A stretch of 64,000 nt of DNA from positions 1,674,001 to 1,738,000 of the forward strand of contig NC_013757.1 in NCBI RefSeq assembly GCF_000025345.1, given 5' to 3'. The position numbers and the translations under genes are program-made. The notes beneath the pieces were generated by a model, which searched no databases, had not been told where the DNA came from, and worked only from the letters and a program-made list of their open reading frames with translations. The stretch comes from Geodermatophilus obscurus DSM 43160 (GTDB lineage: Bacteria > Actinomycetota > Actinomycetes > Mycobacteriales > Geodermatophilaceae). This document shows, piece by piece, positions 14,325 to 20,495 of this stretch. The first letter of the stretch is position 1. Each line of letters opens with the position of its first letter.

Positions 14325-15344
14325 TCAGCGGACGATGACGACGTGCTCCCCGCGCGGGACGAACTCGCCGATCACCGGGGCGCCCGGCACCTCGCCGCCC
14401 AGCAGCAGCCCGCCGGAGGTCTGCGCGTCGGCCAGCAGCAGCGCCTCGTCCTCGGCGACGGCGGACAGGTCGGTGTGCGGGCGGACCCAGTCGAGGTTGC
14501 GCCGGGTGCCGCCGGACACGAAGCCCGCGGCCAGCGCCTCCCGCGCCCCGGTCAGGTACGGGACGGCGGCGGCGTCGACCACCGCGGTCACCCCGCTGGC
14601 CCGGGCCATCTTGTAGAGGTGGCCGAGCAGCCCGAAGCCGGTGACGTCGGTGCCGGCACGGATCCCGGCGGCCACCGCGGCCCGGCCGGCGTCGCGGTTC
14701 AGCGTCGTCATCGCGGCCACCGCCTCCTCCGACACCTCGCCGGTGGCCTTCATCCGGTTGTTCAGCACGCCGATGCCCAGCGGCTTGGTCAGCGACAGCG
14801 GCGTCCCGGCGACCGCGGCGGCGTTGGTGATGACCCGGTCGACGTCGACGACGCCGGTCACCGCCATGCCGTACTTGGGCTCGGGGTCGTCGATGGAGTG
14901 CCCGCCGCCGACGTGGCAGCCGGCCTCCTGCGCGGCCTCGAGCCCGCCCCGCAGCACCTCGGCGGCGAGCTCGGCGGGCAGCACGTCGCGCGGCCAGCCG
15001 AGCAGGTTCACCGCGACGACGGGCGTGCCGCCCATCGCATAGACGTCGGAGAGCGCGTTGGTCGCCGCGATCCGGCCGAAGGTGTGGGCGTCGTCGACGA
15101 CGGGGGTGAAGAAGTCGGTGGTCAGCACGATGCCCTGCCCACCCGCGATCCGGACGACGGCCGCGTCGTCGCCGTCGTCCAGGCCGATGACCAGCTCCGC
15201 GGCCGGGTCGACCGGACCGGTGGCGGTCAGGCCGGCCACCACGGACTCCAGCTCGCCGGGCGGGATCTTGCAGGCGCAGCCACCGCCGTGCGCGAACTGG
15301 GTGAGCCGGGTGCGGGCGGGCGGCGCCTCCTGAGCAATAGCCAC
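14325..15344 (-). CDS. selD: Selenophosphate synthetase
   Basis: SelD makes selenophosphate from selenide and ATP, the selenium donor for Sec-tRNA. The 339-residue protein has the active-site segment GGGCACKIPP (Cys23 and Lys26 correspond to Cys17 and Lys20 of the E. coli enzyme). It also has the glycine-rich GVLNNRMKATGEVSEE and DVTGFGLLGHL motifs. The catalytic position is Cys, not Sec. The start is GTG 15344. It is divergent from selC, whose promoter overlaps its 5' end, so the selenium genes form one divergent locus. Confidence 0.96.
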   Translation of the reverse strand: MAIAQEAPPARTRLTQFAHGGGCACKIPPGELESVVAGLTATGPVDPAAELVIGLDDGDDAAVVRIAGGQGIVLTTDFFTPVVDDAHTFGRIAATNALSDVYAMGGTPVVAVNLLGWPRDVLPAELAAEVLRGGLEAAQEAGCHVGGGHSIDDPEPKYGMAVTGVVDVDRVITNAAAVAGTPLSLTKPLGIGVLNNRMKATGEVSEEAVAAMTTLNRDAGRAAVAAGIRAGTDVTGFGLLGHLYKMARASGVTAVVDAAAVPYLTGAREALAAGFVSGGTRRNLDWVRPHTDLSAVAEDEALLLADAQTSGGLLLGGEVPGAPVIGEFVPRGEHVVIVR

Positions 15345-15367: not shown

Positions 15368-15463
15368 GGAGGCGTCAGGGTGTCTGGTGGCCCCCGCGGC
15401 CTCTAAAGCCGACGTGGCCGAGCATCTCGGTCAGGCGGGTTCGATTCCCGTCCGCCTCCGCCA
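15368..15463 (+). tRNA. selC: Selenocysteine tRNA with anticodon CUA
   Basis: The 96-nt gene has a 7-bp acceptor GGAGGCG/CGCCTCC (an eighth pair would be U-C), discriminator G and encoded CCA. It has a long variable arm with stem CCGAG-CAT-CTCGG, and a T arm closing on TTCGATT. The anticodon stem CGGC/GCCG holds the 7-base loop CTCTAAA, so positions 34-36 are CUA, not the usual UCA, and the tRNA would read UAG. The large variable arm, the long acceptor/T stack and the position between selD and selA identify it as tRNA-Sec. Suppressor-type tRNA-Sec(CUA) has been reported in Geodermatophilus and Blastococcus. Confidence 0.95.
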
Positions 15464-15650: not shown

Positions 15651-17350
15651 ATGACCGCACCACCGGAACCGGTCGGCACCGTCCACGTCGTCGACCCCTC
15701 GCCGCTGAACTGGCTCTTCATCACCTGGAACACGATGGAGGAGCCGATCCGCATCGACCGGGACGGGCGGGTCGTCCACTCGCTGGCCGAGTCCTCGGAG
15801 TGGCTCGACGACCGCACGCTGGAGCTCGGACTGCGGCGGAACGTGCGGTTCCAGGACGGCGAGCACTTCACCGCCCACAACGTGAAGCAGAACTTCGACG
15901 AGATGCAGCGCTGGGCCGCGCCCCACCCGCCCGGCACCTGGCTGAACTTCCCGGCGCCGCAGTCCACCGCCGAGGTAGTCGACGACCACACCCTGCGGTT
16001 CTCCTTCCCGGGCCCCGACGGGCTGGCCATCGGCAAGTTCCGCGGCTTCCACATCGCCAGCTCGGCCTTCTGGAACGGCAAGGACGCGCCCGGCTTCGGC
16101 TACAAGAAGTTCGGCTCCGGCGAGGGCCACTGGTAGGTGATCGACGAGCCGGGCCCCTGGGGTACCGGTCCGTTCACCCTGGTCCAGGGTGCTTCGTCGA
16201 TCACGACCCGTCCCGCGATCATGAACGTGGAGCCCTTCCGGGCGTCCTCGATCATCGAGAGCGAGCAGCGCGACCCGCAGGTCGTGCTGGAGGCCAACCT
16301 CGACCACTGGAACCGCGCCGCCCGCGGGCCCGCATCGAGCGCGCCGTGTTCCGCAACGACCTGACTCCCGACGAGGCGCTGCGCCTGGTGTGCGACACGG
16401 AGGGGGAGGTCGACATCGTCACCGAGGTGTCCCCGGCCGACGCCCAGCGGGTGCTGGACTCCCAGCACGCCCGGCTGGTGGTGTCCGACGCCAACCGGGT
16501 GCTGGTCGGCATCCTCAACCGCGGCAGCGACGCGCCCCTGCACGACGTCGAGGTGCGCCGGGCCCTCAACGCGGCCATCGACCGCACGGCGGTCGTCGAC
16601 CAGGGCCTGAACGGCTACGCCTCGGTCATCCCGGCCATGACGCCGCCGTGGTGCAGCGGGTTCCCCGCGGGCGTGCAGCCGTACGAGCTCGACGCCGCCA
16701 GGGCGCGGGAGGCGTTCGCGAAGGCCGACTGGCCGGCCCGCCGGCCGCTGCGGATCGCCACCCCCGAGTCCTTCGCGGCCATCGCGCACATGCTGGCCGC
16801 GAGCATCCGCTCCACCCTCGACCTCATGGTCGAGGTGGTCGTGGTGCCGCCCGACCAGGTGCCGGCCGGCTCCCGCGCGCTGATCGAGAAGAAGCTCGAC
16901 CTGCCGTGGGACGTGCTCCTGCACCCGTGGTTCGACCTGTCCTCGGAGGCGCCGCCGGCCGCGGTGCACCGGGAGTTCTTCGGCCTGGACGGCGCCTTCC
17001 GGGCCGGCCCGCCCGACGAGGGCTTCGACGCGCTGTTCGACGAGATGAAGGTGCAGCTCGACGGGGAGGCGCTGGTCGAGGTCGCCGAGCGGATCGACGC
17101 CTACGTGCACGACCGGGCGCTCGCGCTGTTCATCTGCGCACCGCAGGCGCTGTACGCGGTCAACGAGCACGTGACCTTCTCGCCGTACAAGACCACCTTC
17201 GAGCTCGCCGAGGTCACCGTCGACGAGCAGCACTGGTCGGTCAGCGGCGGGCGCTCGGACAGCAGCCGCAGGGACCTCGGCGACCGGACCGCCATCCGGC
17301 CGACGAGCGGCAAGCCCACCTTCTCGCAGGCCTCGGGGAACGCCTGCTGA
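15651..17350 (+). CDS. Solute-binding-protein family 5-like selenoprotein with in-frame UAG (frameshift in this sequence)
   Basis: ATG 15651, with GGGAGG 5-10 bases upstream, opens an SBP_bac_5 (DppA/OppA-like) protein: RNVRFQDGEHFTAHNVKQNF is the family signature. The frame reaches TAG at 16134-16136 (residue 162) in the context FGSGEGHW-TAG-VIDEPGPWGTGPF. Homology to the family continues without interruption across it, so the TAG lies inside a domain and is not a terminus. With tRNA-Sec(CUA) 170 bp upstream and selA/selB following, it is read most simply as selenocysteine. Near 16333 the frame shifts by one missing base (a run of three C where four give ARGPRIERAVFRNDL); the rest runs to TGA 17350. 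Repaired length is about 566 residues. No signal peptide or lipobox is visible, and no permease genes adjoin, so it is probably not an ordinary transporter component. Alternative: a plain pseudogene with a nonsense and a frameshift lesion. Confidence 0.78.
16149..16168 (+). promoter_or_regulatory. Candidate bacterial SECIS hairpin
   Basis: CCGG at 16149-16152 pairs with CCGG at 16165-16168 around inner G/C pairs and a small apical loop 18-25 bases after the UAG, within the spacing used by bacterial SECIS elements. A second stem CACCCT/AGGGTG (about 16175-16191) follows. The folding was done by eye. Confidence 0.5.
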
Positions 17351-17412: not shown

Positions 17413-18723
17413 ATGAGTCCCGACCCACGCCGGCGGGTGCCCCGCACCGACGCGCTGCTGGCCGACCCCCGCCTGGTCGCGGCCGCCGGCCGGCTGGGCC
17501 GCGACCTGGTCAAGGCCGCCGTCCAGGGCGTGCAGCAGCGCGTCCGGGACGGCCGGCTGGACCCCGACGACGCCGCCGACGCCGTCCTGGCCGCCCTGCC
17601 GACGACGGCCGGCAGCCTGCGGCCGGTGCTCAACGCCACCGGCGTGCTCGTGCACACCAACCTCGGGCGCGCGCCGCTGTCCCCGGCCGCGGTGGAGGCC
17701 GTGGTCGCCGCCAGCGGGACCACCGACGTCGAGCTCGACCTGGTCACCGGCCGCCGCGGGCCGCGCGGCGAGGCGGCGCTGGCCGCGCTGGTCGACGCCG
17801 TCCCGGCCGCGGAGGCCGCCCTGGTGGTCAACAACTGCGCCGCCGCGCTGGCGCTGGTGGCCACCGCGCTCGGCGGGGAGCTGGTCATCGCCCGCGGCGA
17901 GCTGGTGGAGATCGGCGACGGCTTCCGCATCCCCGAGCTGCTGGAGGCCACCGGCGCGCGGCTGCGCGAGGTGGGGACGACCAACCGCGTCGCGCTCGAG
18001 GACTACCGGCGCGTGCTGGGCCCCGGCACCGGCGCGGTGCTCAAGGTGCACCCGTCGAACTTCGTCGTCCGCGGTTTCACCCGGGCGGTGCCGGTGGCCG
18101 AGCTCGCCGCGGGGCTGGCCGGCAGCGGCGTCCCGCTGGTGGCCGACGTCGGCTCCGGGCTGCTGCGCCCGCACCCCGTGCTGCCCGACGAGCCGGACCT
18201 GCAGACCACCCTCGCCGACGGCGCCGACCTGGTGCTGGCCAGCGGCGACAAACTGCTCGGCGGCCCGCAGGCCGGACTGGTGCTCGGCCGCGCCGACCTG
18301 GTGCAGCGGCTGCGGCGGCACCCGCTGTACCGCGCGTTCCGCGTGGACAAGACGACGCTCGCCGCACTCGAGGCCACGCTGCGCGGCCCCCAGCCGCCGG
18401 TGCAGCGGATGCTCGCCGCCGACGTCGACGGCCTGCGCCGCCGCGCCGCCGCGCTCGCCGCCCGGCTGACGGTCGCCGGGCTGGACGCGGTCGCGGTCGA
18501 CTCGCAGGCCCGCGTCGGCGGGGGAGGCGCGCCGGAGCACCCGCTGCCCAGCGCCGCGGTGTCGCTGCCCGCGCAGTTCGCGGTGCCGCTGCGCGCCGGC
18601 ACGCCCCCGGTGGTCGGGTACCTCGCGGCGGACCGCACCCTGCTCGACCTGCGCAGCCTGCCGCCGGCGCACGACGAGGCGCTGGCCGCCGCGGTGCTGG
18701 AGGTGGCCCGCCGGTGGACGTGA
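17413..18723 (+). CDS. selA: L-seryl-tRNA(Sec) selenium transferase
   Basis: SelA is a PLP enzyme that converts Ser-tRNA-Sec to Sec-tRNA-Sec using selenophosphate. The 436-residue protein has the N-terminal LNATGVLVHTNLGRAPLS, the serine-binding region EVGTTNRVALEDYRRVLGP and the PLP lysine Lys280 in LASGDKLLGGPQAG. Length is normal for the family. ATG 17413 gives the standard N-terminus (PDPRRRVPRTDALLADPRL). It follows the UAG gene by 62 bp and overlaps or abuts selB. Confidence 0.96.
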   Translation: MSPDPRRRVPRTDALLADPRLVAAAGRLGRDLVKAAVQGVQQRVRDGRLDPDDAADAVLAALPTTAGSLRPVLNATGVLVHTNLGRAPLSPAAVEAVVAASGTTDVELDLVTGRRGPRGEAALAALVDAVPAAEAALVVNNCAAALALVATALGGELVIARGELVEIGDGFRIPELLEATGARLREVGTTNRVALEDYRRVLGPGTGAVLKVHPSNFVVRGFTRAVPVAELAAGLAGSGVPLVADVGSGLLRPHPVLPDEPDLQTTLADGADLVLASGDKLLGGPQAGLVLGRADLVQRLRRHPLYRAFRVDKTTLAALEATLRGPQPPVQRMLAADVDGLRRRAAALAARLTVAGLDAVAVDSQARVGGGGAPEHPLPSAAVSLPAQFAVPLRAGTPPVVGYLAADRTLLDLRSLPPAHDEALAAAVLEVARRWT

Positions 18724-18734
18724 CCGCTGCCGGC

Positions 18735-20495
18735 ATGGACGTCATCGCGACTGCCGGTCACGTCGACCACGGCAAGTCCACGCTGGTCCGCGCGCTCACC
18801 GGCATGGAGCCCGACCGGTGGGAGGAGGAGCGCCGCCGCGGCCTGACCATCGACCTCGGCTTCGCCTGGACGACGCTGCCCTCCGGGCGCCGGCTCGCGG
18901 TCGTCGACGTGCCCGGCCACGAGCGCTTCGTCGGCAACATGCTCGCCGGCGTCAGCTCGGTGCCCGCCGCGCTGGTCGTGGTCGCGGCGGACGACGGGTG
19001 GTCGGCGCAGACCGCCGAGCACGTCGCCGTCCTCGACGCGCTCGGTGTGCGGCACGCGCTGCTCGCCGTCACCAAGGCCGACCTTGCCGACCCCGCCCCC
19101 GTGCTCGCCGACGTGCGCGAGCGGCTGGCTGCGACGTCGATGGGCGAGGTCCCGGGGGTCGCGGTCAGCGCCGCCACCGGCGCGGGCGTGCCCGACGTCG
19201 TCGCCGCGCTGGAGTCGCTGCTCACCGGGCTGCCGGCACCGGATCGCGAGGCGCCGGTGCGGCTGTGGATCGACCGCGCCTTCCCGGTCAAGGGCGCCGG
19301 CACGGTGGTCACCGGGACCCTCGCCGCCGGCCGCGTCGCCACCGGGGACCGGCTGCAGCTCGGCGACCGCGAGGTCGGCGTCCGCGGCGTGCACTCCCTG
19401 GGGCAGCCGGTCGAGCGGGCCGAGGCCACCGCGCGGGTGGCGCTGAACCTGCGCGGCACGTCGGTCGAGGAGCTCGCCCGCGGCGACGCGCTGCTCACCC
19501 CCGGGGCGTTCCGCTCGACCACCGAGCTCGACGTCACCCTGGCCCGGGGTGGGTGGGCTGCTGGGGACGACGCCCGGCTGCCCGCCGAGGTGGTCGTGCA
19601 CGTCGGGTCGGCCGCGGTCGGCGCGCGGCTGCGCCCGCTGGAGGGGGCGGCGGTGCGGCTGCGGCTGGCCACGCCGCTGCCACTGCGGATCCGCGACCGG
19701 CTGCTGCTGCGCGACCCCGGCGCCCGGCGGGTGCTGGGTGCCGACGTCCGGGACGTCGACCCGCCGGAGCTGCGCCGCCGCGGTGCGGCCCGCCGCCGCG
19801 CCGAGGAGCTGGCCGCCCAGCCCGCCGGCACGGCCGGGGCAGCCGCCGAGCTGGCCCGCCGCAGGTTCGTGCGGACCGCCGACTTCGCCGCGATGGGGTG
19901 GCCGTTGCCCGAGCAGGCCACCGCCGTCGGGCCCTGGCTGCTCGCGCCGGGCCTGGTCGAGGAGCTGTCCGCCGCCCTCCCGGGGATCGTCGCCCGCTAC
20001 CGGCAGCTGCGCCCGCTGGAGGCCGGTCCGCCGGTGGCCGTCGCCCGGCGGGCCCTGGAGCTGCCCGACGACGAGCTGGTGCCGGCCGTCGTCCGCCCGC
20101 CGCTGGCCCTGCGCGAGGGGCGGGTGGTCGTCGCGACGGCGGGCCTGCCCGCGGAGGTGCAGCAGGCCGTCGACGGCATCCGCGACCGGCTGGCCGCCGA
20201 CCCGTTCGCCGCGCCGGACGCCGAGGAGCTGCGCGCCGCCGGGCTCGGCCCGCGGGAGCTGGCCGCCGCCGTCCGCGACGGGCAGCTGGTGAAGATCGCC
20301 GACGGGGTCCACCTGGCGCCGGGGATCGAGGAGCAGGCGCGGGCGCGGCTGGCCGGCGTCCCCGCGCCCTTCACGCTCAGCCAGGCCCGCGCGGCGTGGG
20401 GGACCAGCCGGCGGGTCGCGGTTCCGCTGATGGAGTGGCTGGACGCGCGTGGTGTCACCGAGCGGCTGCCGGACAACACCCGCCGGCTGCGGTGA
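18735..20495 (+). CDS. selB: Selenocysteine-specific elongation factor
   Basis: SelB is the GTPase that carries Sec-tRNA-Sec to the ribosome and binds the SECIS RNA. The protein (586 residues from ATG 18735) has G1 TAGHVDHGKSTL, the switch region RRGLTIDLGFAW, VDVPGHERFVGNM and TKAD. EF-Tu-like beta domains follow, then C-terminal winged helices (LSQARAAWGTSRRVAVPLMEWLDARG). ATG 18735 gives the family N-terminus MDVIATAGHVDHG; GTG 18714, overlapping selA by 10 bases, is also possible. The winged helices must recognise the SECIS of a UAG-programmed message here. Confidence 0.95.
   Translation: MDVIATAGHVDHGKSTLVRALTGMEPDRWEEERRRGLTIDLGFAWTTLPSGRRLAVVDVPGHERFVGNMLAGVSSVPAALVVVAADDGWSAQTAEHVAVLDALGVRHALLAVTKADLADPAPVLADVRERLAATSMGEVPGVAVSAATGAGVPDVVAALESLLTGLPAPDREAPVRLWIDRAFPVKGAGTVVTGTLAAGRVATGDRLQLGDREVGVRGVHSLGQPVERAEATARVALNLRGTSVEELARGDALLTPGAFRSTTELDVTLARGGWAAGDDARLPAEVVVHVGSAAVGARLRPLEGAAVRLRLATPLPLRIRDRLLLRDPGARRVLGADVRDVDPPELRRRGAARRRAEELAAQPAGTAGAAAELARRRFVRTADFAAMGWPLPEQATAVGPWLLAPGLVEELSAALPGIVARYRQLRPLEAGPPVAVARRALELPDDELVPAVVRPPLALREGRVVVATAGLPAEVQQAVDGIRDRLAADPFAAPDAEELRAAGLGPRELAAAVRDGQLVKIADGVHLAPGIEEQARARLAGVPAPFTLSQARAAWGTSRRVAVPLMEWLDARGVTERLPDNTRRLR

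Follow-up and report, generated by a model that had tools for sequence, protein, structure and literature searches.

In Geodermatophilus obscurus DSM 43160, as comparison of its genes with those of its relatives makes very probable, certain UAG codons are recoded as selenocysteine (Sec) in a manner that depends on SelB and a SECIS hairpin; the CUA anticodon of its tRNA-Sec would have arisen once, the Sec codons would have moved from UGA to UAG, and four genes would be targets (a solute-binding-like protein, here a frameshifted copy, one FDH-N-type formate dehydrogenase, and two UGSC proteins). The genes, the codons and the conservation on which this model is built are read directly from the genomes. 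UAG-programmed Sec in the Geodermatophilaceae was reportedly described by Mukai et al. in 2016. Section 17 of PMC5330540 covers UAG-Sec in this family, with three genomes and with formate dehydrogenase (FDH), UGSC and one AhpC as targets, in agreement with the initial annotation, which had considered the tRNA not to be new. The system described there and the present one share the CUA tRNA-Sec and the FDH and UGSC targets with UAG, and these parts are already known; compared with that section, the present analysis differs in its 101 genomes, in a further target family and in the place of the switch. The new parts, all of them computational, are the predicted selenoprotein family that neighbours the tRNA, the mapped single switch and a putative two-tRNA genome.

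The window, that is, the whole stretch of 64,000 nucleotides analysed, contains the following features:

14325..15344, minus strand: selD, selenide water dikinase (TIGR00476, 381.7 bits, cut-off 125; Pfam AIRS and AIRS_C)
15368..15463, plus strand: tRNA-Sec with a CUA anticodon at 15403-15405 (Rfam RF01852, 65.1 bits; ARAGORN, cta)
15651..17350, plus strand: solute-binding-like (PF00496) predicted selenoprotein gene (PF00496 on its first part; similarity to the G062 copy)
16134..16136, plus strand: in-frame TAG, predicted Sec codon (GEGHW-U-VID; a stop at the same site in 63/63 alignable relatives)
16149..16168, plus strand: predicted core of the SECIS hairpin (folding the window copy gives 8 pairs, one bulged base and a 3-base loop)
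17413..18723, plus strand: selA, L-seryl-tRNA(Sec) selenium transferase (TIGR00474, 405.4 bits, cut-off 267.9)
18714..20495, plus strand: selB, Sec-specific elongation factor (TIGR00475, 277.4 bits, cut-off 242.25; PF09107)

The Rfam tRNA-Sec model RF01852 (gathering score 47 bits) spans 15368-15459 at its full length (model positions 1-91 of 91; 65.1 bits, E 5.5e-11), and no Rfam family besides tRNA-Sec was reported there. In this covariance fit, CUA at 15403-15405 occupies the spot where the model has UCA, which supports two earlier claims: the gene is for a tRNA-Sec whose anticodon is CUA, and this tRNA would decode UAG. A misread anticodon base is excluded by conservation: of the 108 genomes of the family in which a tRNA-Sec was found, 101 have CUA. 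ARAGORN, which also reads cta at 15368-15463, labels the gene tRNA-Pyl; the label and the anticodon would suit a pyrrolysine tRNA, a reading made extremely improbable by the end-to-end fit of the tRNA-Sec model at 65.1 bits, by ARAGORN's own assignment of the UCA relatives of the same tRNA sequence to tRNA-Sec, and by the adjacent selD, selA and selB. An RF01852 search of the whole genome (one contig of 5,322,497 bases, E <= 0.001) gave seven places, among which the tRNA at 15368-15463 scores best; the remaining six are, according to ARAGORN, three tRNA-Ser, a tRNA-Leu, a tRNA-Gly and a tRNA-Met, with one tRNA-Ser narrowly exceeding the gathering score (48.2 bits). No second tRNA-Sec, with UCA or otherwise, was found in these 5,322,497 bases.

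The order of the locus is selD (minus), tRNA-Sec (plus), the family-5 solute-binding-like gene (plus), selA (plus) and selB (plus). The three sel genes are each above their NCBIfam cut-offs, so the initial annotation was right to place them beside the tRNA; it overlooked the gene with an in-frame TAG between the tRNA and selA. The active site of SelD, as read off the translation, has the Cys form, and the C-terminus of SelB matches the SelB winged-helix domain PF09107. Related arrangements exist with the other codon: in G073, a Geodermatophilaceae metagenome-assembled genome (MAG), a solute-binding-like gene with TGA sits between a UCA tRNA-Sec and selA, and in Pseudonocardia acidicola such a gene, again with TGA, sits between selD and selA-selB. 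ARAGORN found no tRNA in the latter stretch, and the UCA tRNA-Sec of P. acidicola was found elsewhere in a genome search. Arthrobacter sp. YA7-1 and Tsukamurella tyrosinosolvens have plasmids with the same order of selD, tRNA-Sec, selA and selB; these plasmids differ in having a UCA anticodon (canonical UGA-Sec loci), in lacking a solute-binding gene between the tRNA and selA, and in having FDH genes adjacent.

The delivery of Sec-tRNA requires SelB and a SECIS element. By analogy with the known bacterial pathway, the tRNA-Sec would be charged with serine, after which SelA would make Sec-tRNA using selenophosphate from SelD, and SelB would bring this Sec-tRNA only to UAG codons trailed by a SECIS hairpin, with insertion of Sec there and termination at other UAG codons. 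The initial annotation had spoken of UAG as reassigned to Sec, which is too strong. Among the 34 confident open reading frames (ORFs) of the window, as defined by our own ORF filter, 31 end in TGA and three in TAG; since TAG still ends these three, UAG would remain a stop for ordinary genes, and its recoding would be confined to a special context (SECIS, SelB). That every UAG is read as Sec would fit with a tRNA that reads UAG and with the rarity of UAG as a stop in the window; the three ORFs ending in TAG, the dependence of delivery on SelB and SECIS, and the presence of selB make it very improbable. As for the benefit of context-dependent recoding at UAG, this codon is the rarer stop and UGA the main one, so that fewer terminations would compete with Sec; moving Sec off the main stop is likely to have been an advantage.

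The target beside the tRNA is one of two types found in the family; the other, a paralogue, is about 48% identical. The first 224 residues of the window copy are 94% identical to the unbroken G062 copy (Geodermatophilus sp. DSM 45219), and past the TAG at 16134-16136 the frame continues with conserved sequence up to a one-base frameshift at around 16328 (16320-16335), located by comparison with the same unbroken copy. This frameshift may be either a sequencing error or the mark of a decaying gene. The type beside the tRNA, which this genome and others have, ends in a conserved GNAC (L111-L114 and L116) that is lacking from the paralogues; the Cys of this motif is a possible resolving Cys for the Sec.

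In the family, 14 of the 108 genomes hold the gene, in 17 places, with TAG in 15, TGA in one and TAA in one, all at the same site; the single TGA copy is in G073 and the single TAA copy in G074, both of which have a UCA tRNA-Sec. A wider collection of species genomes gave 65 loci, two of which could not be aligned at the Sec site and were left out; the other 63 comprise 50 TGA, 12 TAG, one TAA and no Cys. The peptide patterns used for retrieval are N-terminal and away from the site, so there was no selection for a stop, and distant forms may be missed. Going by their titles, the 12 TAG loci are from Geodermatophilus, Modestobacter or Blastococcus (all Geodermatophilaceae); among the hosts with TGA are Rubrobacter, Solirubrobacterales, Pseudonocardia, Bacillaceae and Dormibacterota. 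When 30 non-TAG host genomes were checked (29 TGA and the TAA one), 29 had a tRNA-Sec, the Beijerinckiaceae MAG of L256 being the one in which none was found; all 30 tRNA loci fetched have UCA, four weaker matches having been left unfetched. An alignment of 22 proteins shows no variation in the GHW that precedes the site or in the D, PG and W that follow it.

These observations bear on whether the TAG might be a regulated stop or have arisen by nonsense mutation. Such an explanation would agree with the frameshift in the window copy and with the G057 copy, whose C-terminal part is off frame. It is improbable in view of a stop at the same site in 63/63 alignable loci from several phyla, with both flanks conserved, and of a codon that fits the anticodon of the host tRNA-Sec at every locus with a known tRNA, except in G074. 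The TAA of G074 lies at the Sec site of a paralogue (G074:C70, L253 / L122); the tRNA-Sec of that genome is UCA, and both ends of the frame look broken. A Sec codon is thus the preferred reading of the TAG, and the solute-binding-like protein would constitute an apparently undescribed Sec-containing family.

PF00496 (SBP_bac_5) scores 108-150 bits in four full-length relatives. In a search of NCBIfam, no selenoprotein model matched the protein, and the only matches were to general models of nickel, peptide and similar binding proteins, far below their cut-offs. A crude hydropathy scan, made with neither a signal-peptide program nor a positive control, placed one of 56 N-termini above 1.6 in a 12-residue window. 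Because no permease or ATPase gene was found among the 10 neighbouring proteins scanned, at five loci, the protein is not classed as part of a transporter. In this it differs from SaoB (NF040727) and SaoX (NF040735), which a 2026 review (PMC13188914) lists as selenoprotein ABC binding proteins and which are likewise predicted binding proteins with Sec. Moreover, no match to NF040727 or NF040735 was obtained at E <= 0.001, and the motif is HW-U rather than the CUxxT and UxP given there for SaoB and SaoX. No matching protein was found by a limited search in parts of PMC13188914, PMC12013277 (deep-Sep) and PMC1794560, which does not prove it unpublished. Elsewhere among the hosts, in Bacillus sp. 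CECT 9360, a manganese catalase gene (L237, 2990-3880) directly precedes the gene for the predicted solute-binding selenoprotein, and Bacillus pinisoli (the genome of L244; L333 and L347) has a pair of UCA tRNA-Sec genes separated by about 5.5 kb.

The predicted SECIS hairpin begins 13 bases past the TAG codon. Its conservation was counted over 12 pairs (the hairpin and its lower stem) in 60 sequences, 52 of them distinct; these are 60 of the 61 extracted (L268 is out), four of the 65 loci not having been extracted. Pairing holds in 92.8% of cells across the 12 pairs, changes on both sides occur in 14 cells versus 5.0 in shuffles, and the covariation score is 0.107 versus 0.070 in shuffles and at most 0.050 in slid controls. 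Two of the five measures (the number of pairs with double changes and the number of pair types) are not above the shuffles, two of the 12 pairs fail (in 13/52 and 21/52 sequences), and RNAalifold retains only four pairs. Folding energies are at the level of shuffles in all four sequences folded (z from -0.04 to -1.12). At third codon positions, G or C is more frequent within the hairpin than in the rest of the gene at all nine of the Bacillus-group loci that were compared. Of nine UGSC sequences, seven give an eight-pair hairpin with a 3-base loop if a length of 45 bases is used; one of these adopts a different fold at 60 bases.

Across the family, a tRNA-Sec was found in 108 of 112 genomes (E <= 1e-9), with CUA in 101 and only UCA in seven, which belong to genera g5, g6 and g7; a second tRNA-Sec in G037 is also CUA. 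A SelA tree was built from 54 chosen rows (44 CUA, five UCA and five from outside the family), and in it the CUA rows form one clade (100/100), which argues for one anticodon switch; this would have occurred in the ancestor of most Geodermatophilaceae. In a tree of the solute-binding gene, which comprises 59 of the 63 loci since those under 350 residues were left out, TAG arises twice, each clade having 100/100; the shift of Sec codons from UGA to UAG would be directly visible in these two lineages. A UAA-reading intermediate was rejected: an exact pattern open to either CUA or UUA matched nothing but CUA, which occurred in 76 of 397 genomes from the order. A CUA tRNA-Sec from outside the family (G230:C194, L187; a MAG from a different family in the order) was judged to be on a Geodermatophilaceae contaminant contig because its SelD is 88% identical to that of the window and because another SelA and SelB are present elsewhere in that genome.

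The initial annotation named no targets. One is in the window beside the tRNA, and three more are predicted elsewhere in the genome:

C1:364696-367845: FDH-N-type formate dehydrogenase (TAG in ARI-U-HS; found with PF00384)
C1:2512118-2512546: UGSC gene 1 (137.1 bits; one TAG)
C1:3951134-3951547: UGSC gene 2 (102.8 bits, below the 125-bit cut-off; one TAG)

FDH-N is present in 98 of the 108 family genomes; 116 of the 124 matched stretches span the Sec site and all 116 hold a TAG, the site itself having been read in seven sequences. UGSC is present in 53 of the 108 genomes with 93 copies, of which 72 have one TAG, 21 have no stop and none has TGA. FDH-N was not found in the UCA genera (0/9 genomes of g5-g7), and both UGSC copies of UCA genomes are without a stop; within the family, the same-gene codon move is therefore seen only in the solute-binding protein. 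A different FDH, with TGA, is present in G072, G073 and G074 (UCA) and in G071 (no tRNA found), and the Sec-FDH of the UCA genomes, used as a query, gave TGA copies in G071-G074 only. Apparent double-Sec formate dehydrogenases (five matches, each with one TGA and one TAG) were rejected, the TGA being the natural terminator 902-905 codons past the UAG. Two FDH-N fragments in G079 (L315 and L316; C12 and C4), both starting after the Sec site, hold two TGA in one case and one TAG in the other, and are possibly pseudogenes. Codon statistics, applied across the window in search of read-through frames, did not discriminate: they gave 243 candidates, with the known site outside the best 12.

Among the 108 genomes, both anticodons occur together in a single one, Geodermatophilus G058. 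Its native CUA tRNA-Sec is in the sel locus on contig C11, and a second tRNA-Sec, with UCA (81.8 bits), sits within a mobile-element-rich island on contig C17, at a distance of 1.2 kb from the contig end:

G058:C17 (L038), 1169-2157: UCA tRNA-Sec next to a peroxidase-related gene with TGA (contig end low in GC, with transposase genes)

The peroxidase-related gene, 0.3 kb from this tRNA, matches TIGR01926 (112.6 bits, cut-off 81.8) and has its TGA at a Cys present in nine of nine fetched homologues (11 were found). A 7-pair hairpin follows the TGA, with an energy at the level of shuffles. The gene, which has a CFYU motif, also matches NF041238 (AhpD-related selenoproteins), far below the cut-off (51.7 of 175 bits). 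Unlike the NF041238 and TIGR01926 families, it has a UCA tRNA-Sec of its own next to it, within a UAG-Sec genome. Only one SelB in G058 is above the cut-off, and two weaker matches, with counterparts in the G. obscurus genome and in another one, are probably other GTPases. Unless the island is an assembly error, G058 may thus insert Sec at UGA as well as at UAG, using the same machinery for the two codons.

Contamination or misassembly, in which case the cell would read UAG only, is rather unlikely. The assembly is a draft, the tRNA is close to a contig end, the first 7.5 kb of C17 have 61-68% GC versus 75-77% beyond 20 kb, no second SelB was found, and the state is present in just one of 108 genomes. 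Against this, the remaining 49 kb of the contig have the tetranucleotide composition of the genome (correlation of 0.985-0.991 with another G058 contig), the transposase genes near the tRNA are as expected of a mobile element, and the reported contamination is 1%. The chances seem about even for a two-part proposal: that G058 inserts Sec at two codons, using its native CUA tRNA-Sec together with a UCA one gained by horizontal transfer, both served by one SelA and one SelB, such a state being a possible route from UGA to UAG without the loss of selenoproteins; and that the HW-U protein is an undescribed, Cys-less selenoprotein family whose codon records the switch.

Codon changes are usually visible only before or after the event, and this family holds both states. 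With a gene whose codon tracks the switch in two lineages and one genome that seemingly has two tRNAs, the route of a code change would be testable in culturable soil bacteria. A selenoprotein family with no known Cys form would, moreover, indicate a chemistry that requires selenium.
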